Assembly (NCBI GenBank): GCA_029204225.1
Contig: CM055092.1
Span: forward strand, 86,602,537-86,666,536
Source of the DNA: Diphasiastrum complanatum
Lineage: Eukaryota > Streptophyta > Lycopodiopsida > Lycopodiales > Lycopodiaceae
Length of the DNA stretch: 64,000 nucleotides
Reading direction: 5' to 3'
Shown here: positions 13,972 to 61,362 of the stretch, in pieces
Position numbering within the stretch: position 1 is the first letter of the stretch
Layout: each line of letters opens with the position of its first letter
Translations under genes and position numbers: made by a program
The notes under the pieces: model-generated
What the model was told of the DNA's origin: nothing
Database searches by the model: none
Seen by the model: the letters and a program-made list of their open reading frames with translations, nothing else

Positions 13972-14048
<77 letters not shown>

Positions 14049-29000: not shown

Positions 29001-32000
29001 CCTCTCGTGGGGTACCCTGGAAACGTCCAGTTTCAATCTCAAGCTGATGTGAAGATACTCTGAACTGTCCCAATGTAAATCTCAAACAGTGTGATAACCC
29101 AAAGTCTAGGTACTGCGGCTGGGACTGGGAAGCCCGATACATCAAGCTCTAAGAAATGAGTCCGATAGAAGTCGGGTTTAACACCCAACTGTCCCTGCCA
29201 GGTATGTCGAAGATAAGCTCGATAAATGTATCGCCAGATATACTCATGGGTACCTACTGGAAGGTCGGAGATGGGGATGCTGAGTGAACTCAAGAGACGA
29301 GTGGCCTGTCAATACCACGATGAGTGGAAACCCATACTGTGAAGCTGCATCGAAGAAGTAACCACCATAAAAATATTGTCAGGAGGAAGTGCTAAGGCTC
29401 TCTGAATAAACACGATGAGTCTGAAGAGAGCATCAACTAGCAATGGAGGAATTGCAAACTCTGTGGTGATGATATGATGTGGTACTGATGACTTAGCTCG
29501 TATCATCCGAGAGCGCATAGTGATATGTAGTCATGATCTACTAGCCCAATCAGAGGAGGTGAGGCCAGTGCACCAAGTCTCAGCTGAATAGAGTACTGTA
29601 GGAGTGACCATAATGTCAAAAAGGCGACATTTACTAGGAGCATCGTGAATATATCTCCTGAAGCATAATCTCTCTAGCTGGACCAAGGATGCATGGCCCT
29701 TCCCCAGGCGGGCCAAAGCTGCATGTCTCATATTGAAAATAGGACCACTAAAGAGCACCCCCAGGTAGGTATACGATGAAACCACCTCTAGAGGCTGATC
29801 AAAGGTGAGCTCCTGTCTGAGCATGAAAGATCTAGAAGTGTTGAAGACCATAACTTTGGTCTTCGAAATGTTCACCTATAATCCCCATCGAGCACAAAAT
29901 GTCTGTAGACTGTAAAGTGTCTCTGTAGTCCCTCCTTGGTCGGAGATAATAGAGCTACATCATCCGCATATAAAAGTATGACGATCAAGATATCACCAAG
30001 CCGACATCCCTGACCATCACCTTGACTAATAACCTCCTCCAGCTCATCAATATATAATCCAAATAAAGTAGGTGATAAGGAACAACCCTGCTTCACCCCA
30101 ATCGTGCTCAATACTGGATCTGAAATGTCAACCAATACACTGCTTGATGTGCAACAAGGTATGACTTGGTAGAAGAGTTTCCAACAAGACCTAAAGTTCT
30201 GTTCGAACATCTTCCATGCGTATAGATATTGGTCTCATAATGATAGAGTCTGGATGTACAAGGGTTGTTCAATGTTATTCAATGCTTTGTGTTACATCCA
30301 TGCCTGATACAGAGGATTTGGAATAATCCTTGACGTGGATATTCGGTACCCATTACGACATATGGAGCTAGTGCATGGTGTCTAACTGCATAAATGCATG
30401 TGAGGGAGATCAGAAGCAATTGGATGAGAATCAGCATCTTATAGGGAATATTCCTAGGCCTTAGGGGATTAAATATACCTGTAGGAACCCGCCCTACTCA
30501 CCTATTTTCCCGTTTCTAGTTGCCAACATCCGTCACCATGGCTCTGGGGAGAAGTTGATTAGGGTTTGACTCGGCTTCCAACTGGATAGGTGGTTTGGCT
30601 CCACAATAGTCCTTTTGGCGCATGCAACGGGATCTAGAGGATGGCTAGTGCATGGTGTCCGACGACTATAAATGCATGTAAAGGAGATCAAAAGCAATTG
30701 GATGAGAATTGGGATCTTATAGGAAATATTCCTAGGCCCCAGGGGCTTATATATACTTCTGGGAACTCGCCCTACTTCTCACATATTTCTTTGTTTCCAA
30801 TTGCCAGGATCCTGTTAGAAATCCATAAATCATAATATGGATGGACAGACTAGGATTCGAACCCGGACCTCCCTCATACCGGATGGGATGCTCTACCACT
30901 AAGCTATCCGCCCTGTTTGATAGTTCTCTCTAGAGTGTGGATTGATATTCCAACCCCCTCCCCCCCCCCCCTCAAGCCACACTTGGTTGGGGTCCTAGCT
31001 GTCACCTGCCCCACAACTTGGGTCACCTAACCATGGCTTTGACACCATGAACTGTTAGGTCTAACTTGGCTCTAATACCATGTTAGAAATCCATAAATCA
31101 TAATATGGATGGACAGACTAGGATTCGAACCCAGGACCTCCCTCATACCGGATGGGATGCTCTACCACTGAGCTATCTGCCCTGTTTGATAGTTCTCTCT
31201 AGAGTGTGGATTGATATTCCAACATCCTCTCGTGTATTCAGTCACTGTGGCTTGGGGGAGAACCTGATTGGGATTTGACTCTTGGCTTTCAGCTGGATGG
31301 GTGGTTTGGCTCCACAGTAGTCCTTTTGGCGCATGCAACAAGATCGAGAGGATCTACACTTGGTGGCTATTATACTTTGTGTGATCAAATAACGTGGCAA
31401 AGCAAACTTGGGTCCGATGGAACTCCATGTATAATTTAGTATTCTTTCATTATTCAAAGGAATACTAAATTATACATGTAGTTGCATCAGACCCAAGTTT
31501 GCTTTGCTACATTGTTCGATCACGCAAAGGATTGAATAACTTTGAGCAACCCTTGTACATGTAGATATCATTGTTTTTTAAACTTTCTAGGCTTTTCCTT
31601 TTCTAAGATACCTTAAAATATTCACAAAGAAACCCTGCCCTTCCTCCCCCCCTCCCAAAAAAAAAAGGAAAAATAAAAATGTTCCTTTCTAGAATGTCCT
31701 AAAATTCCGGAATGCGATGGGTCTATGATTGAATTAACCTATAAATTACCTACAAGAGCCTAGAGGGCGACCAGCCTTGCCTGCTTTGATACCATGTTAT
31801 AATTCTACAATCTTTCCCAAGGCAAGTAGCATTCAATCATCCACAAAAAGAGACAAGAGAAGGTAACAATATTTGAAAGAATGAATAAGCAATAGCTGAT
31901 GGTACACTAACCCAACTCCCACTGGGGAATGCCCAATATATAGTTACAACATTGACTCTTCAACCACCAAGGGTCTTGGAATTTGGAAGTCAATCACCGA

Positions 32001-32366: not shown

Positions 32367-32427
<61 letters not shown>

Positions 32428-38679: not shown

Positions 38680-39359
38680 ATTTCAAGAAATGAGCTATAA
38701 TTCATGCTAGAATCATAGATTTTGATGCAATTCAAGCATTGATTGCTATCTAGACACAATCTATGATTTTGTACCTTCGATATTTGATCAATTTGAGTGA
38801 AGAGGGATCTAATGTTTTTTATTTATAGGCCATCTCTTATCAATTGGATCAAAATAACAAGTACTTTGTGCTTCTTTTTGATACTACTCGATTTGTGGAG
38901 TCAATCACAAAGAATAGTTTTCAATCATTAAATAGAGATCATCATTCTTGGTGGTGTAATAGGTTGTTCTTAGACTTATTGAGATAATTAAAAGTCAATT
39001 TTGGGGTCAGCCCAAAGGTTTTGACAAGTATTCATCCTAGAATGCAATCATTAGAGGAGTTACAAACATCAAAAGGGTCGTCTAAGAAATGCCACGTAGG
39101 ACAAAAAAACGTCAAATTTTGGAAATTCGACGGACTTTCAGGTCCAGTTTAGCTTAACCTTACTAGTAATGTGTAGTTAACATGACACGATTATGACGCG
39201 TGCAACTATGACTTCAAGAACCTATGACGCTCATTAATTAACTTTTTCAAATTTGAAAATGAGATTGTGTCCCTCGTTTTAACTAGCGAGAGAATAAACA
39301 TAGAATCTCAAGTACGCCATGGATGAATAAGAGTGTCTATTTTCTTTTTGGTCTGTCAG
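38680..39359 (+). other. Leader-like sequence, no gag found
   Basis: AT-rich sequence after the PBS. From about 39070 (GGGTCGTCTAAG) the composition changes, possibly the edge of another element carrying the next two genes. Confidence 0.4.
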
Positions 39360-39965
39360 CTGATGTTTGCGGAGATGTTTCAGTTTCATCTACACATTGT
39401 TCTCCCTGCCGAGAATGCTCCGATAGCTAAAAGAGTAGTGAAAGAATCCACAGTTTTTCTACTTGATATGATCGCTCACAAAATCAACCAAAGAAAGAAC
39501 TACGATTTGTCGATTGACGGAAGTTTGTATCCATTGGATCCGAGCTCAATGCAAGCTCCACAATTCCAATCCATCACACAATTAATAAAGTTTTTGTGTG
39601 ATAGAGAAAACGGTTTACTGGGTTATTGTGAAAGATTGAGGACTTATGGTGTTGCAAACTCGGTTCAGAAAATACAGAGTTTAGAATGTATGTTAAATGG
39701 TTTGCTTGCTGTCTATAGAGAAAAAGAGACCGCAATATTACAAACAAAAGAAGATAATGCACGTTTACATAATATTATGTTAAATTTGAATGCAAGTAAC
39801 GATCAACTCCGACAATTTTTAGACATATCAAATTACCAGTTAAAAGAAGAAACTCGCATACTAGATAAGAAATTATAAAGAAACAAGTGAAAAAGATTTC
39901 TGAAGGACATTGATGAGCTTTCGCTAAATGGAGGCCAACGGAGAAAAATGATTCAAGCATTCAAG
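39360..39965 (+). pseudogene. Unrecognised gene, first visible exon, coiled-coil-like C-terminus
   Basis: Open from a possible acceptor (GTCTGTCAG) for about 173 codons: FQFHLHIVLPAENAPIAKRV, LYPLDPSSMQAPQFQSITQL, then a Leu/Glu/Asn-rich stretch that looks helical. Two in-frame stops (39876-39878 and 39888-39890) interrupt it, after which it continues KRFLKDIDELSLNGG to a GTAAGG donor at 39966. The composition is protein-like and I do not recognise it. The second exon has a phase mismatch at this junction, so a further indel is implied. Confidence 0.55.
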
Positions 39966-48660: not shown

Positions 48661-50420
48661 TGACAACAACCATCATCCACCTGAGATCTATCTATGCATA
48701 AGAGACAATCTGACTTTTAAGAAATTGAAATACAAGTATCTTGGGACATCTCAAATTCCAAGCTTTAATCCTATAAGTAGTAATTCACATGATGATGACA
48801 TTCCTTTAAAAAATAAATAACTTTCACGTTGGAAGGATCATATGAATTTAATCTGATGTCTAGGATTCGAGAAATTCAAAAGAAGTAAGGCTTCTTTAAG
48901 AAGGTGAGAAATAATATTAAGGGTTTTCTAATTTGTAAATTGTGAGATACCCCCATTGGGATCTGGATTAAACCTCAAATCTCCAAAAAATATCCAAACA
49001 TTTAACCAATGAATTCACCCGTTAGTATTACCATTATTGTCCATTGGTCTACAGATCACTCTTGCACAAGAATTTCCTTTTGGAATCACTAATGTCCCAT
49101 ACTGTTGGAAGTAAATCTGGTTTGTCAATGTTTGGCTAGATCTACTCACGATGTGGTGTAGTATAGGGAGGATCGTCCGCTTTCTAAGTTCTACCAAGTT
49201 TCAGACAGAGTGCAAAAATAGAAACAATGATGAAGCACTAAGGCTTTCGCAACTAATGCTCGAAATAGAATGAAACTAACTAAGATGACAAAATACAAAA
49301 CCTTACTAAGGCTTACCCAACTAGCAAGGTGATTAAACTAAATTCTAGATTTAACACCCAAAGGGAATTAGAATGGAAGATTGCGGCTAATTATTAATCA
49401 ATCAACAAAATACATGCCACAATACAAACCAATGAGAAGGAGGCAAGAGGAGGCCCGAGCACCTTCCCTCAAGCTATGCACTTTCCCAAACGGAACACAA
49501 ATGAAATAGAGAGATAATCTCAAAAATAGAGAACTTGATAGCTTAACCTCAAAAGTGTTATTTACAAGGCAAATACCTCTCCTTTTATGGCAAGGAGGGT
49601 CTTCCATAAGTATCCACTAACTTATGGGACTAATCTATTTCTAGCCTTTCTAGATTGGGCTTACAAACACATGACATGGTGGAAGTTTATTAACAAACAC
49701 TCGTACGTGGACTTACAAAACACATGCCACGAAGTTTTATTTTTCTCTTTTTTATTTTTTATGTGTTAGCACAGATGCTAACACATACCATCAGCTTCCC
49801 CTCCAAGAAATTCTTTGCTTCTAGATCTAATCTCCAAAAAATCAAAAAGATTTAACTAGATATCCTATATCCAAATATAGGATCTGATTTTCAACCAATT
49901 CCTTCCAGTCATTTAATTTCCTCATGTTCCTTTTGTTGAAAAATGAAAAATGAAAAATCATCTACCTTGACTTTAGGCTTTTGACAAAGTTTTTTCTATG
50001 TGTATATGTTGTTTCATATTGTAAATGCCAAATTTGGCCTAGAAGAAAGTCGAGCTACATGGGTTCTTCAAGTCTAGTTGGTAATATACAACTTGCATAT
50101 AGAATAAAGACATAGAAATGTCAATAATAGGCTTGTAGAAACTTGTGGCATATCACATGCAATGGTTGTAAGTGATCCATAGTGACATGCAAGGCATGCA
50201 CAAAGTGAATTGGACACATGCATGATGATTTGTACAATTCTAGTTGAAAATTTGACACTTGGTAAAAGTAGGTAGAAATGCATGCATGTAAAGTGACAAA
50301 TGTCACTAATTCTCTAGTTTTCATTTTTAGATGTGGATGAAAGTTGGATGGAGATGGTTCTACTTCGAGCTATTCCAAACTCCATAAATATGTGTAGACT
50401 CTCATAATTTTTTTATGAAG
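48661..50420. other. AT-rich repeat remnants, no coding
   Basis: No domain-bearing frame. Contains a 12-bp-arm hairpin at 49760-49787. The right part is probably the 5' portion of the next copia LTR, whose left end I could not place. Confidence 0.4.
49760..49787. repeat. Perfect hairpin, 12-bp arms
   Basis: TATGTGTTAGCA - CAGA - TGCTAACACATA. The TGTTAGCA..TGCTAACA pair looks like LTR-terminal sequence. Confidence 0.85.
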
Positions 50421-50716
50421 AACCAAGTTTTGAAGCTATTTCATGTCATTTTGGATCTACACTATTGTTTGCTTGAATTTTGCTCTTTCTTTCTCTCTCT
50501 AACTCGAGTAGAGACTTATCCTAATGCATTAAATTCTTGTACTTCTTCTCCCTTGTTTTTCAAGGCAATCATTCTTTGATTCTTAGCATGCTAGATTGTG
50601 ATTTAGCCATAAAATCTTGTACTAGATCTTGGCATTCAATCTAGAATCAATTTATGTGCTAAACGCAAAGCTTGAGGATCATTCCCCACACGTGTGAGCT
50701 TGCTAGAGTTTAATCA
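50421..50716 (+). repeat. 3' part of a copia 5' LTR
   Basis: 296 bp repeated at 52480-52794 with about 90% identity. It ends TTTAATCA directly before the primer-binding site. The true left end lies further left and is not repeated downstream. Confidence 0.85.
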
Positions 50717-50729
50717 TGGTATCAGAGCC
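50717..50729 (+). promoter_or_regulatory. Primer-binding site for initiator tRNA-Met
   Basis: TGGTATCAGAGCC directly abuts the LTR. Confidence 0.9.
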
Positions 50730-51486: not shown

Positions 51487-52479
51487 TATGGCATATGTGG
51501 GAGGATATCTCCTAGAAGCAAGTGAAAGAGTAAGTACCTCCAATTATTCAATATGGAAGGTCTATTCTTATACTCCAGGATGTTATGGACATAGTACTTG
51601 GTATTGAGGAGGAGCCTCAAGCACAACTTGAAATACCAAAGTATAGGAAGAGAGCTAGAATGGCTCTACACTTCATTACTAATGAATGTCTCTAATGAGA
51701 TTCTAAGACAAATAGGATCTTGCACCACTGCTAAAGAAGCTTGGGATGCACTTAAGTCAATCTATGAAGCTAAAAACACTTGTAGAATACTCACACTTAG
51801 AAATCAGATTTTTCAAAGTTTTCAAAGAAGTGAGGAGAGTGCATCAAATTATGTTCTGAGAGTAAAAGATCTAAATAGGGAGCTCGTTTGTGTTGGTGTC
51901 ACAATCAATCAAGATGAGCTAGTACAAGTCCTTCTCAAGGGCTTAAAAGAAGACTATGATAATCTTGTTCAATCCTTTGCATAAAGGAGGAGTTGCCCAA
52001 TTTGGAGACTCTTCAAGGAGTTCTCACCTCTGAAGAAGCAAGACAAAGTTACAAACGTTCAAGGATGAACAAACTCGAGCATATTGGAAGTGAGAAAGCT
52101 CTCTTTGTCAAAGACAAGCATAAAGGGAAGTGCAAGAACCAGTTTTCTCAAACTTCCAACAAAGACAAAGCCAAGGACAAAGACAAAGATGGTGACTCAA
52201 ACAAGCAAATCTCTCTAATGAGAAAGAAAAAGACTATATTGCAAGTGATGGAGAAGGATCCCTCATGGTGTCAAGCTTTTCTTCAACACCCTTCAAGAAG
52301 GATGGAGTATGGTACATCGATAGTGGTGCCTCATCACATATGTGTTGTTCAAAGGAGTCTTTTGACTCTATTGTACCTTATAAAGGACTTGAAAGATCTA
52401 TTTATACAACAAATGATCATGAATGCTCTATTGAAGGAATTGGCAACATTCCATTAAAACTTGCTTCTTCTAAAATTCG
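51487..52479 (+). pseudogene. Copia gag plus truncated protease
   Basis: An ATG at 51487 reads MAYVGGYLLEASERVSTSNY, as in the gag at 47074; a short deletion after SIWKV and a frame break near 51675 disrupt it. It continues CTTAKEAWDALKSIYEAKNT, LVQVLLKGLKEDYDNLVQSF and a Lys-rich nucleocapsid region. In another frame come VWYIDSGASSHMCCSKESFD and IEGIGNIPLKL of the protease (52265-52489). Everything from mid-protease to mid-3' LTR is deleted, so the element depended on others. Confidence 0.88.
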
Positions 52480-52794
52480 AACCAAGCTTTGAAGCTATTT
52501 CATGTCATTTTGGATCTACACTAATGTTTGCTTGAATTTTGCTCTTTCTTTCTCTCTCTAACTCAAGTAGAGACTTATGCTAATGCAAAAAATTCTTGTA
52601 CTTCTTCTCTCTTGTTTTTCAAAGCAATCATTCTTTTATTCTTAGCATGCTAGATTGTGATTTAGCCATAAAATCTTGTACTAGATCCTGGCATTCAATC
52701 TAGAATCAATTTATGTGCTAAACACCAAGCTTAACAAAATCATTCACACTTGAGGATCATTCCCCACACGTGTGAGCTTGCTGAAATTTTATCA
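52480..52794 (+). repeat. Truncated 3' LTR of the same copia element
   Basis: Matches 50421-50716. Carries an extra ~20 nt near 52733-52752 (TTAACAAAATCATTCACAC). The left part of the LTR is missing at the deletion junction with protease. Confidence 0.85.

Positions 52795-57040: not shown

Positions 57041-57147
<107 letters not shown>

Positions 57148-58921: not shown

Positions 58922-61362
<2,441 letters not shown>

Follow-up and report, generated by a model that had tools for sequence, protein, structure and literature searches.

A Helenus-like miniature LTR retrotransposon of Diphasiastrum complanatum and its composites with a Copia element

Miniature LTR retrotransposons (TRIMs) with tRNA-like sequences in their LTRs were named 'Helenus' by Kojima in 2024 and were grouped with Cassandra and Ajax as TRIMp3 (PMC10886601). 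This was the only paper on such TRIMs found among openly licensed papers, and in the portions of its text drawn on here, Selaginella moellendorffii is the sole plant mentioned for Helenus, with the family Helenus-1_SMo. According to Kojima in the same portions, nothing indicates what the autonomous partner of Cassandra is. Tandem arrays have been described both for Cassandra and for other TRIMs (parts of PMC7215508 and PMC4717578).

Here, we describe a family that probably extends this kind beyond the single plant species of those portions of PMC10886601, the host genome of 1.74 Gb being far larger than that of Selaginella moellendorffii, at about 0.1 Gb. One copy is an LTR-interior-LTR element at positions 30813-31224, on the minus strand, of a 64,000-nucleotide stretch of Diphasiastrum complanatum DNA (the window). 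With a probability of about 0.88, we read it as a non-autonomous TRIM of the Helenus / TRIMp3 kind that is moved by a Copia element, with switching guided by the PBS. The features of this copy and its insertion site are as follows.

31081..31224, minus strand: 5' LTR, 144 bp with the family boundaries TGTTGG..CTAACA, drawn from the BLAST LTR pair and 40 genome copies
30813..30954, minus strand: 3' LTR, first base changed from T to G, with 2 substitutions and 1 indel relative to the 5' LTR core
31110..31182, minus strand: tRNA-like sequence of the 5' LTR, ARAGORN Thr-ggt, Rfam 52.4 bits
30842..30913, minus strand: tRNA-like sequence of the 3' LTR, ARAGORN tRNA-Thr(ggt), Rfam 42.1 bits
31165..31175, minus strand: A box of the 5' LTR, TAGCTCAGTGG
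30896-30906, minus strand: A box counterpart in the 3' LTR, TAGCTTAGTGG
31121..31131, minus strand: B box of the 5' LTR, GGTTCGAATCC
30853-30863, minus strand: B box counterpart in the 3' LTR, likewise GGTTCGAATCC
31067..31080, minus strand: PBS TGGTATTAGAGCCA, initiator-Met type, 1 mismatch in 14
31034..31047, minus strand: second PBS-like sequence, in the interior, 2 mismatches
30955..30973, minus strand: polypurine tract (PPT), 19 nt
30809..30813, no strand: left copy of the direct repeat ATCCT, overlapping the last LTR base under TG..CA boundaries
31224..31228, no strand: right copy of ATCCT, overlapping the first LTR base under TG..CA boundaries
30440..30693, plus strand: paralogous empty site, formed by a duplicate of adjoining sequence without the element and with a single ATCC target

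Most of the anatomy in the original prediction held up. The two LTRs of ~141 bp that it had described have cores of 142 and 141 bp and are 97.9% identical in a 143-base BLAST comparison. The predicted initiator-Met PBS with one mismatch was found, the mismatch being counted against the complement of the plant initiator-Met tRNA; the mismatched T of the window copy is C in 32 of the 36 aligned two-LTR copies. The 19-nt PPT was likewise seen, and is longer than that of most aligned copies. A tRNA-like sequence had been proposed for each LTR, and both were called by ARAGORN and, in a covariance-type check of the kind the prediction had suggested, by Rfam (RF00005, E 2.2e-8 and 1.5e-5); neither ARAGORN nor Rfam at gathering score called a tRNA elsewhere in the window. 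The boxes, which had been ascribed in identical form to each LTR, fared unevenly, as the B box is the same in both LTRs whereas the A box of the 3' LTR differs from that of the 5' LTR by one change. Comparison of the translated LTR frame with proteins gave no candidate, and a 26-base exact pattern had 0 matches in viral contigs.

The perfect target site duplication (TSD) ATCCT that had been claimed stands in part. This 5-bp repeat requires element ends of GTTGG..CTAAC, a register that yields a 5-bp repeat at the window locus only; under the TG..CA ends of the family, the window locus (the window, L009 and L010) has only the 3-bp match GGA. The T that begins the 3' LTR in 32 of 36 aligned copies is replaced by G in the window copy, and because the 3' LTR there starts with G, both registers are defensible at this locus. 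The insertion itself is directly visible, because the joined flanks can be aligned to the duplicated adjoining stretch, in which the target occurs a single time; this alignment scored 269, compared to at most 62.5 in 100 shuffles. The host sequence is locally duplicated around the element, at 30367-30812 and 31238-31353 of the window, one copy being the empty site.

The window has several other features. A near-palindrome at 31372-31532 is 85% alike when inverted, with 44-nt arms at 31404-31447 and 31457-31500. Direct repeats of ~300 bp, 89% alike, lie at 50420-50716 and 52479-52794 with an exact iMet-type PBS between them at 50717, and are probably another, short LTR element. Pure GA/TC microsatellites of 28 to 51.5 units occur at 13975-14046, 32369-32424, 57043-57145 and 60645-60740, and an open frame at 39327-39878 has one protein match, 64% identical (P0001), and no Pfam match.

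The host assembly (1.745 Gb, 5176 contigs) contains a family of such elements. A whole-element search, in which the best 40 of 1260 first-look candidates were scored, listed at least 50 matches, and 39 stretches with flanks, covering the listed places besides the window's, give together with the window copy 40 copies at 34 distinct loci. The original prediction had proposed looking for full copies with different 5-bp duplications: perfect 5-bp TSDs surround TGTTGG..CTAACA at 25 of the 34 loci, in 25 different sequences, and 4 further loci have a TSD with one mismatch. More than one mismatch was seen at the remaining five, namely the window locus, L017 (an array), L029, L041 and L045, the last of which is a piece of a larger unit, L084, whose outer ends have a 5-bp TSD. 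Because the TSDs of genome copies fit these ends, the family LTR is 144 bp, and because the other copies have the same anatomy with different TSDs, the element is more than a chance arrangement. Two-LTR copies measure 402-412 bp between GTT..AAC ends, with an interior of ~116 bp. Mean LTR-LTR divergence at 30 two-LTR loci is 1.69%, with 78% transitions, which suggests recent activity of the family within this best-matching sample. Scoring in the copy searches was limited to the best 40 candidates, which biases the samples towards near-identical copies. Arrays with 3 to 5 LTRs were seen at L017, L025, L038 and L045, and those at L025 and L038 have perfect TSDs. A search with the LTR only (best 40 of 1096 candidates scored) led to 30 cut-out loci with 19 new flanks, 11 of which have a perfect TSD, including one solo LTR (L073); L053 and L065/L067 lie inside two composites described below, L078 and L079. 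Searches using only the interior (43 matches listed of 1124 candidates) or only the tRNA part (41 listed of 1075) gave only near-identical matches, of 96% or more and 97% or more, respectively. The genome may still contain a SINE that shares this head, the parent gene, or a partner with the same interior.

The original prediction had supposed that Cassandra had no known tRNA counterpart, a place already filled by Helenus as defined by Kojima. As far as the portions of PMC10886601 used here describe it, Helenus has in common with the present family a tRNA-like sequence per LTR, a PBS after the 5' LTR, a PPT before the 3' LTR, a box A with TRGCY and YGG, a box B with GGTTC, and the 5-bp TSD typical of plants and fungi, which the window copy has only in the shifted register. 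The 410 bp of the window element fall within the published range of 311-1263 bp, and Helenus-1_SMo, compared by description, has an LTR of 120 bp and an interior of 85 bp versus 144 and ~116 bp here. Cassandra, in the parts of PMC7215508 used, is also a TRIM with a Pol III-type promoter sequence in its LTR, the PBS TGGTATCAGAGC and tandem arrays, but its LTR has a 5S rRNA sequence where ours has a tRNA-like one; the window and 20 scanned loci had no 5S rRNA match at the Rfam gathering score. Ordinary plant TRIMs or SMARTs have the same short LTR-interior-LTR anatomy and arrays such as L3I2 and L5I4 (PMC4717578, in part) but are without the tRNA-like promoter sequence of the window family's LTR.

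The 39 fetched loci contain 88 LTRs, and ARAGORN called a tRNA in 87 of them, mostly Thr(ggt) and in six cases Pro, Ile or Arg; 49 Rfam tRNA matches were found in the 20 of these loci that were scanned. Pol III is the putative polymerase acting at this promoter. The same TRIM could instead be transcribed by Pol II, with the tRNA-like sequence carried along as a passenger since an old insertion of a SINE or tRNA into the LTR. We consider this unlikely, and several observations fit it. The LTR tRNA-like parts score 34-53 bits in Rfam, compared to 51-75 bits for the 61 listed genomic tRNA matches that remain when the two of a second TRIM (see below) are set aside (63 scored of 84948 candidates). 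Among 73 end-to-end LTRs from 34 distinct loci (5 partial LTRs of 78 and 6 duplicate copies having been left out), the exact A box TAGCTCAGTGG was present in 52 and the exact B box GGTTCGAATCC in 65, and the A and B boxes were no better kept than other LTR sequence, with 0.0150 substitutions per site and copy in the tRNA part versus 0.0049 and 0.0043 on the flanking LTR sides. Purifying selection on the boxes was thus not seen among young copies, which give no evidence of it because their tRNA part varies more, not less, than its surroundings.

The excess in the tRNA part lies at CG and CHG sites, where the rates per site and copy were 0.0365 and 0.0548, compared to 0.0043-0.0058 outside such sites. 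When CG/CHG sites are set apart, the difference disappears, with 0.0058 in the tRNA part versus 0.0050 and 0.0043 on the sides. Of the 56 changes at CG/CHG sites, 49 were C-to-T or G-to-A, the pattern that deamination of methylated cytosines would be expected to leave. The LTR sides are no control for this effect, because they hold one such site only.

An argument against this Pol II reading comes from the second TRIM, a further tRNA-LTR element of the host genome. It is TRIM-like, contains the tRNA matches L137 and L138, and has a PBS, a PPT and a TG..CA LTR of its own:

L139, reverse-strand positions 375-600, and L140: second TRIM, with the PBS TGGTATTAGAGCC, a short interior and a PPT

Its two places agree to 99.5% across 1041 bases and are therefore one duplicated locus. 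The 5' LTR is truncated, and the 3' LTR has a tRNA-like sequence with TTTT soon after the tRNA part, near the LTR end. The two TRIMs share an identical A box, and their tRNA parts are 84-86% alike over a 58-base core, as would be expected if the promoter is kept, while the B boxes differ (GGTTCGAATCC in the window family, GGTTCAATTCC in the second TRIM). The LTRs of the two showed no match beyond this core at E 0.01, and in their interiors stretches of 14 and 22 bases match at the PBS. A 22-base stretch at the interior PBS-like site of the window copy, 31034-31047, likewise matches the second TRIM in its PBS region. No parent tRNA was found among 26 of the 63 listed tRNA matches, fetched at about one per score class plus the lowest. 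The nearest of the 26, with 58 and 57 identical positions and scores of 42 and 40, are the two in the second TRIM, followed by Arg(tcg) and Thr(ggt) at a score of 22. This comparison between families gives some evidence of selection on the boxes, although the control is mild, since 7% of all pairs among the 26, near-identical genes included, score at least 42.

The absence of TTTT also bears on the promoter. As the original prediction stated, the minus strand of the window copy is TTTT-free throughout its 410 bp, yet in a single copy this is not remarkable, with P ~0.49 when computed from the composition of the copy and 0.10 when computed from that of the window. TTTT was found in 0 of the 36 two-LTR copies of the first set, which speaks against Pol II use, and in 3 of 30 entries of the second set. 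We rejected selection against TTTT as a conclusion: the one-copy statistic gives it no support, and entries of the second set carry TTTT. Its absence is no rule for tRNA-LTR TRIMs either, because the second TRIM has TTTT near its LTR end. Pol III read-through from the 5' LTR into the 3' LTR, which the original prediction had put forward, is possible. Given the likeness of the two LTRs, any terminator past the start would halt the RNA in the 5' LTR too, and termination must consequently be leaky or lie outside the element. Where it falls within the fetched flank, the first TTTT lies 4 to 243 nt downstream of the copies; 7 of 40 printed flanks have none.

The element's relation to a Copia element is seen in composites. 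The tRNA-LTR matches at L053 and L067 are followed by a Copia leader and gag rather than by the TRIM interior, and five larger units are bounded by 5-bp repeats, which were identified by eye in the printed flanking sequence:

L078: LTR-interior-LTR-Copia piece-Copia LTR-interior-LTR-interior-LTR, outer repeat ATTAC
L079: LTR-Copia leader and gag-TRIM tail or interior-LTR-interior-LTR, outer repeat TAGAT
L141: LTR-Copia leader and gag-TRIM tail or interior-LTR-interior-LTR, outer repeat ATGGT; first base of the element changed
L084: LTR-interior-LTR-Copia piece-array, outer repeat GTGCT
L142: LTR-long Copia interior-Copia LTR-TRIM tail and array, outer repeat TAAGT; small deletion near the end of the last LTR

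The Copia pieces have gag, Pol_BBD and gag_pre-integrs domains in L078 and gag, integrase and RVT_2 domains in L142, so that gag, integrase and RVT_2 of Copia type are present in elements joined to the TRIM. The junction of tRNA-LTR and Copia lies at TGGTATCA in seven loci (L078, L079, L084, L097, L101, L105 and L107; L101 is the start of L141 and L105 the start of L142), and the reciprocal junction of Copia LTR and TRIM PBS was found at L078, L081 and L097. L107, which has a hybrid LTR end, was picked because a TRIM match adjoined it; the other upstream stretches are ranks 2-20 of the 40 listed. Of 19 Copia upstream stretches, 15 have the native LTR end, 3 have the tRNA-LTR and 1 has part of the native LTR. 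A tRNA in the native LTR of the Copia was considered and is ruled out, as the 15 stretches end in another LTR without a tRNA-LTR match. That the Copia LTR is tRNA-free and TTTT-rich in most stretches means that another promoter kind exists in the same system, in line with Pol II use by the TRIM. In the Copia leader at L053, TTTT occurs at 25 positions over 587 nt, beginning at 71, and a Pol III transcript would be expected to terminate in a leader so rich in TTTT. Presumably, the native Copia uses Pol II, and Pol II use by helpers of such TRIMs was expected by Kojima (PMC10886601, in the portions used here). The Copia interior of L078 has no match to the TRIM interior at E 1e-5, the PBS being the sole common part.

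Because whole units carry 5-bp TSDs, the five composites look integrated as units, and, with their different TSDs and their joining at the common PBS, they point to the Copia as a helper. They show joint integration and do not prove co-packaging, and the junctions may represent many events or a few that spread. Composites could also arise through DNA recombination or nested insertion of neighbouring TRIM and Copia copies, in which case the Copia would be no demonstrated helper. At least one TRIM copy is nested in a Copia copy, at L069 (TSD ATTCT), and tandem arrays with TSDs exist at L025 and L038. The seven junctions at the common PBS, the three reciprocal ones and the TSDs around five whole composites are harder to reconcile with such an origin, which we regard as rather improbable. 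A tRNA-derived SINE, or two nearby pseudo-tRNA genes with no LTR element, would account for a tRNA-like head with good A and B boxes but is almost certainly wrong, being ruled out by genome copies with LTR-interior-LTR anatomy, TG..CA ends, PBS, PPT and 5-bp TSDs and by a solo LTR with a TSD, features that set this family apart from SINEs and uphold the original prediction of an LTR retrotransposon of TRIM type whose LTRs each contain a tRNA-like promoter sequence of Pol III type.

For a Helenus-like TRIM moved by Copia, the following cycle can be proposed. Transcription by Pol III would start at the tRNA-like part of the LTR, a step that is putative for Helenus as well (PMC10886601, in the portions used here), and the RNA would read through to a T-run in flanking DNA. 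This RNA would be packaged into particles of the Copia, which has the same initiator-Met-type primer site. Minus-strand strong-stop DNA would then transfer between the repeated LTR parts, plus-strand synthesis would start at the PPT, and insertion by the Copia integrase would leave the 5-bp TSD. Occasional template switching at the common PBS between co-packaged TRIM and Copia RNAs would produce the composites.

As read in the portions of PMC10886601 used here, the Copia composites, the second, diverged tRNA-LTR TRIM and the CG/CHG substitution excess go beyond that paper. Kojima's helpers were inferred from PBS and internal similarity, whereas here composites with junctions at the PBS tie the TRIM to one Copia. 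We tentatively propose, at slightly less than even odds, that the TRIM and the Copia often exchange LTRs at their common PBS, that an LTR bearing a tRNA-like, Pol III-type promoter has in this way moved onto protein-coding Copia elements, and that the two form a recombining pair whose helper can be read from DNA alone. In this reading, the TSD-flanked composites have the tRNA-LTR at the 5' end of Copia gag and, in L142, of integrase and RT domains as well. For annotation, these LTRs carry a warning, in that ARAGORN labels them as tRNA genes, mostly Thr. Helpers of Pol III-type TRIMs have been known only indirectly, and the natural PBS fusions described here point to one Copia.
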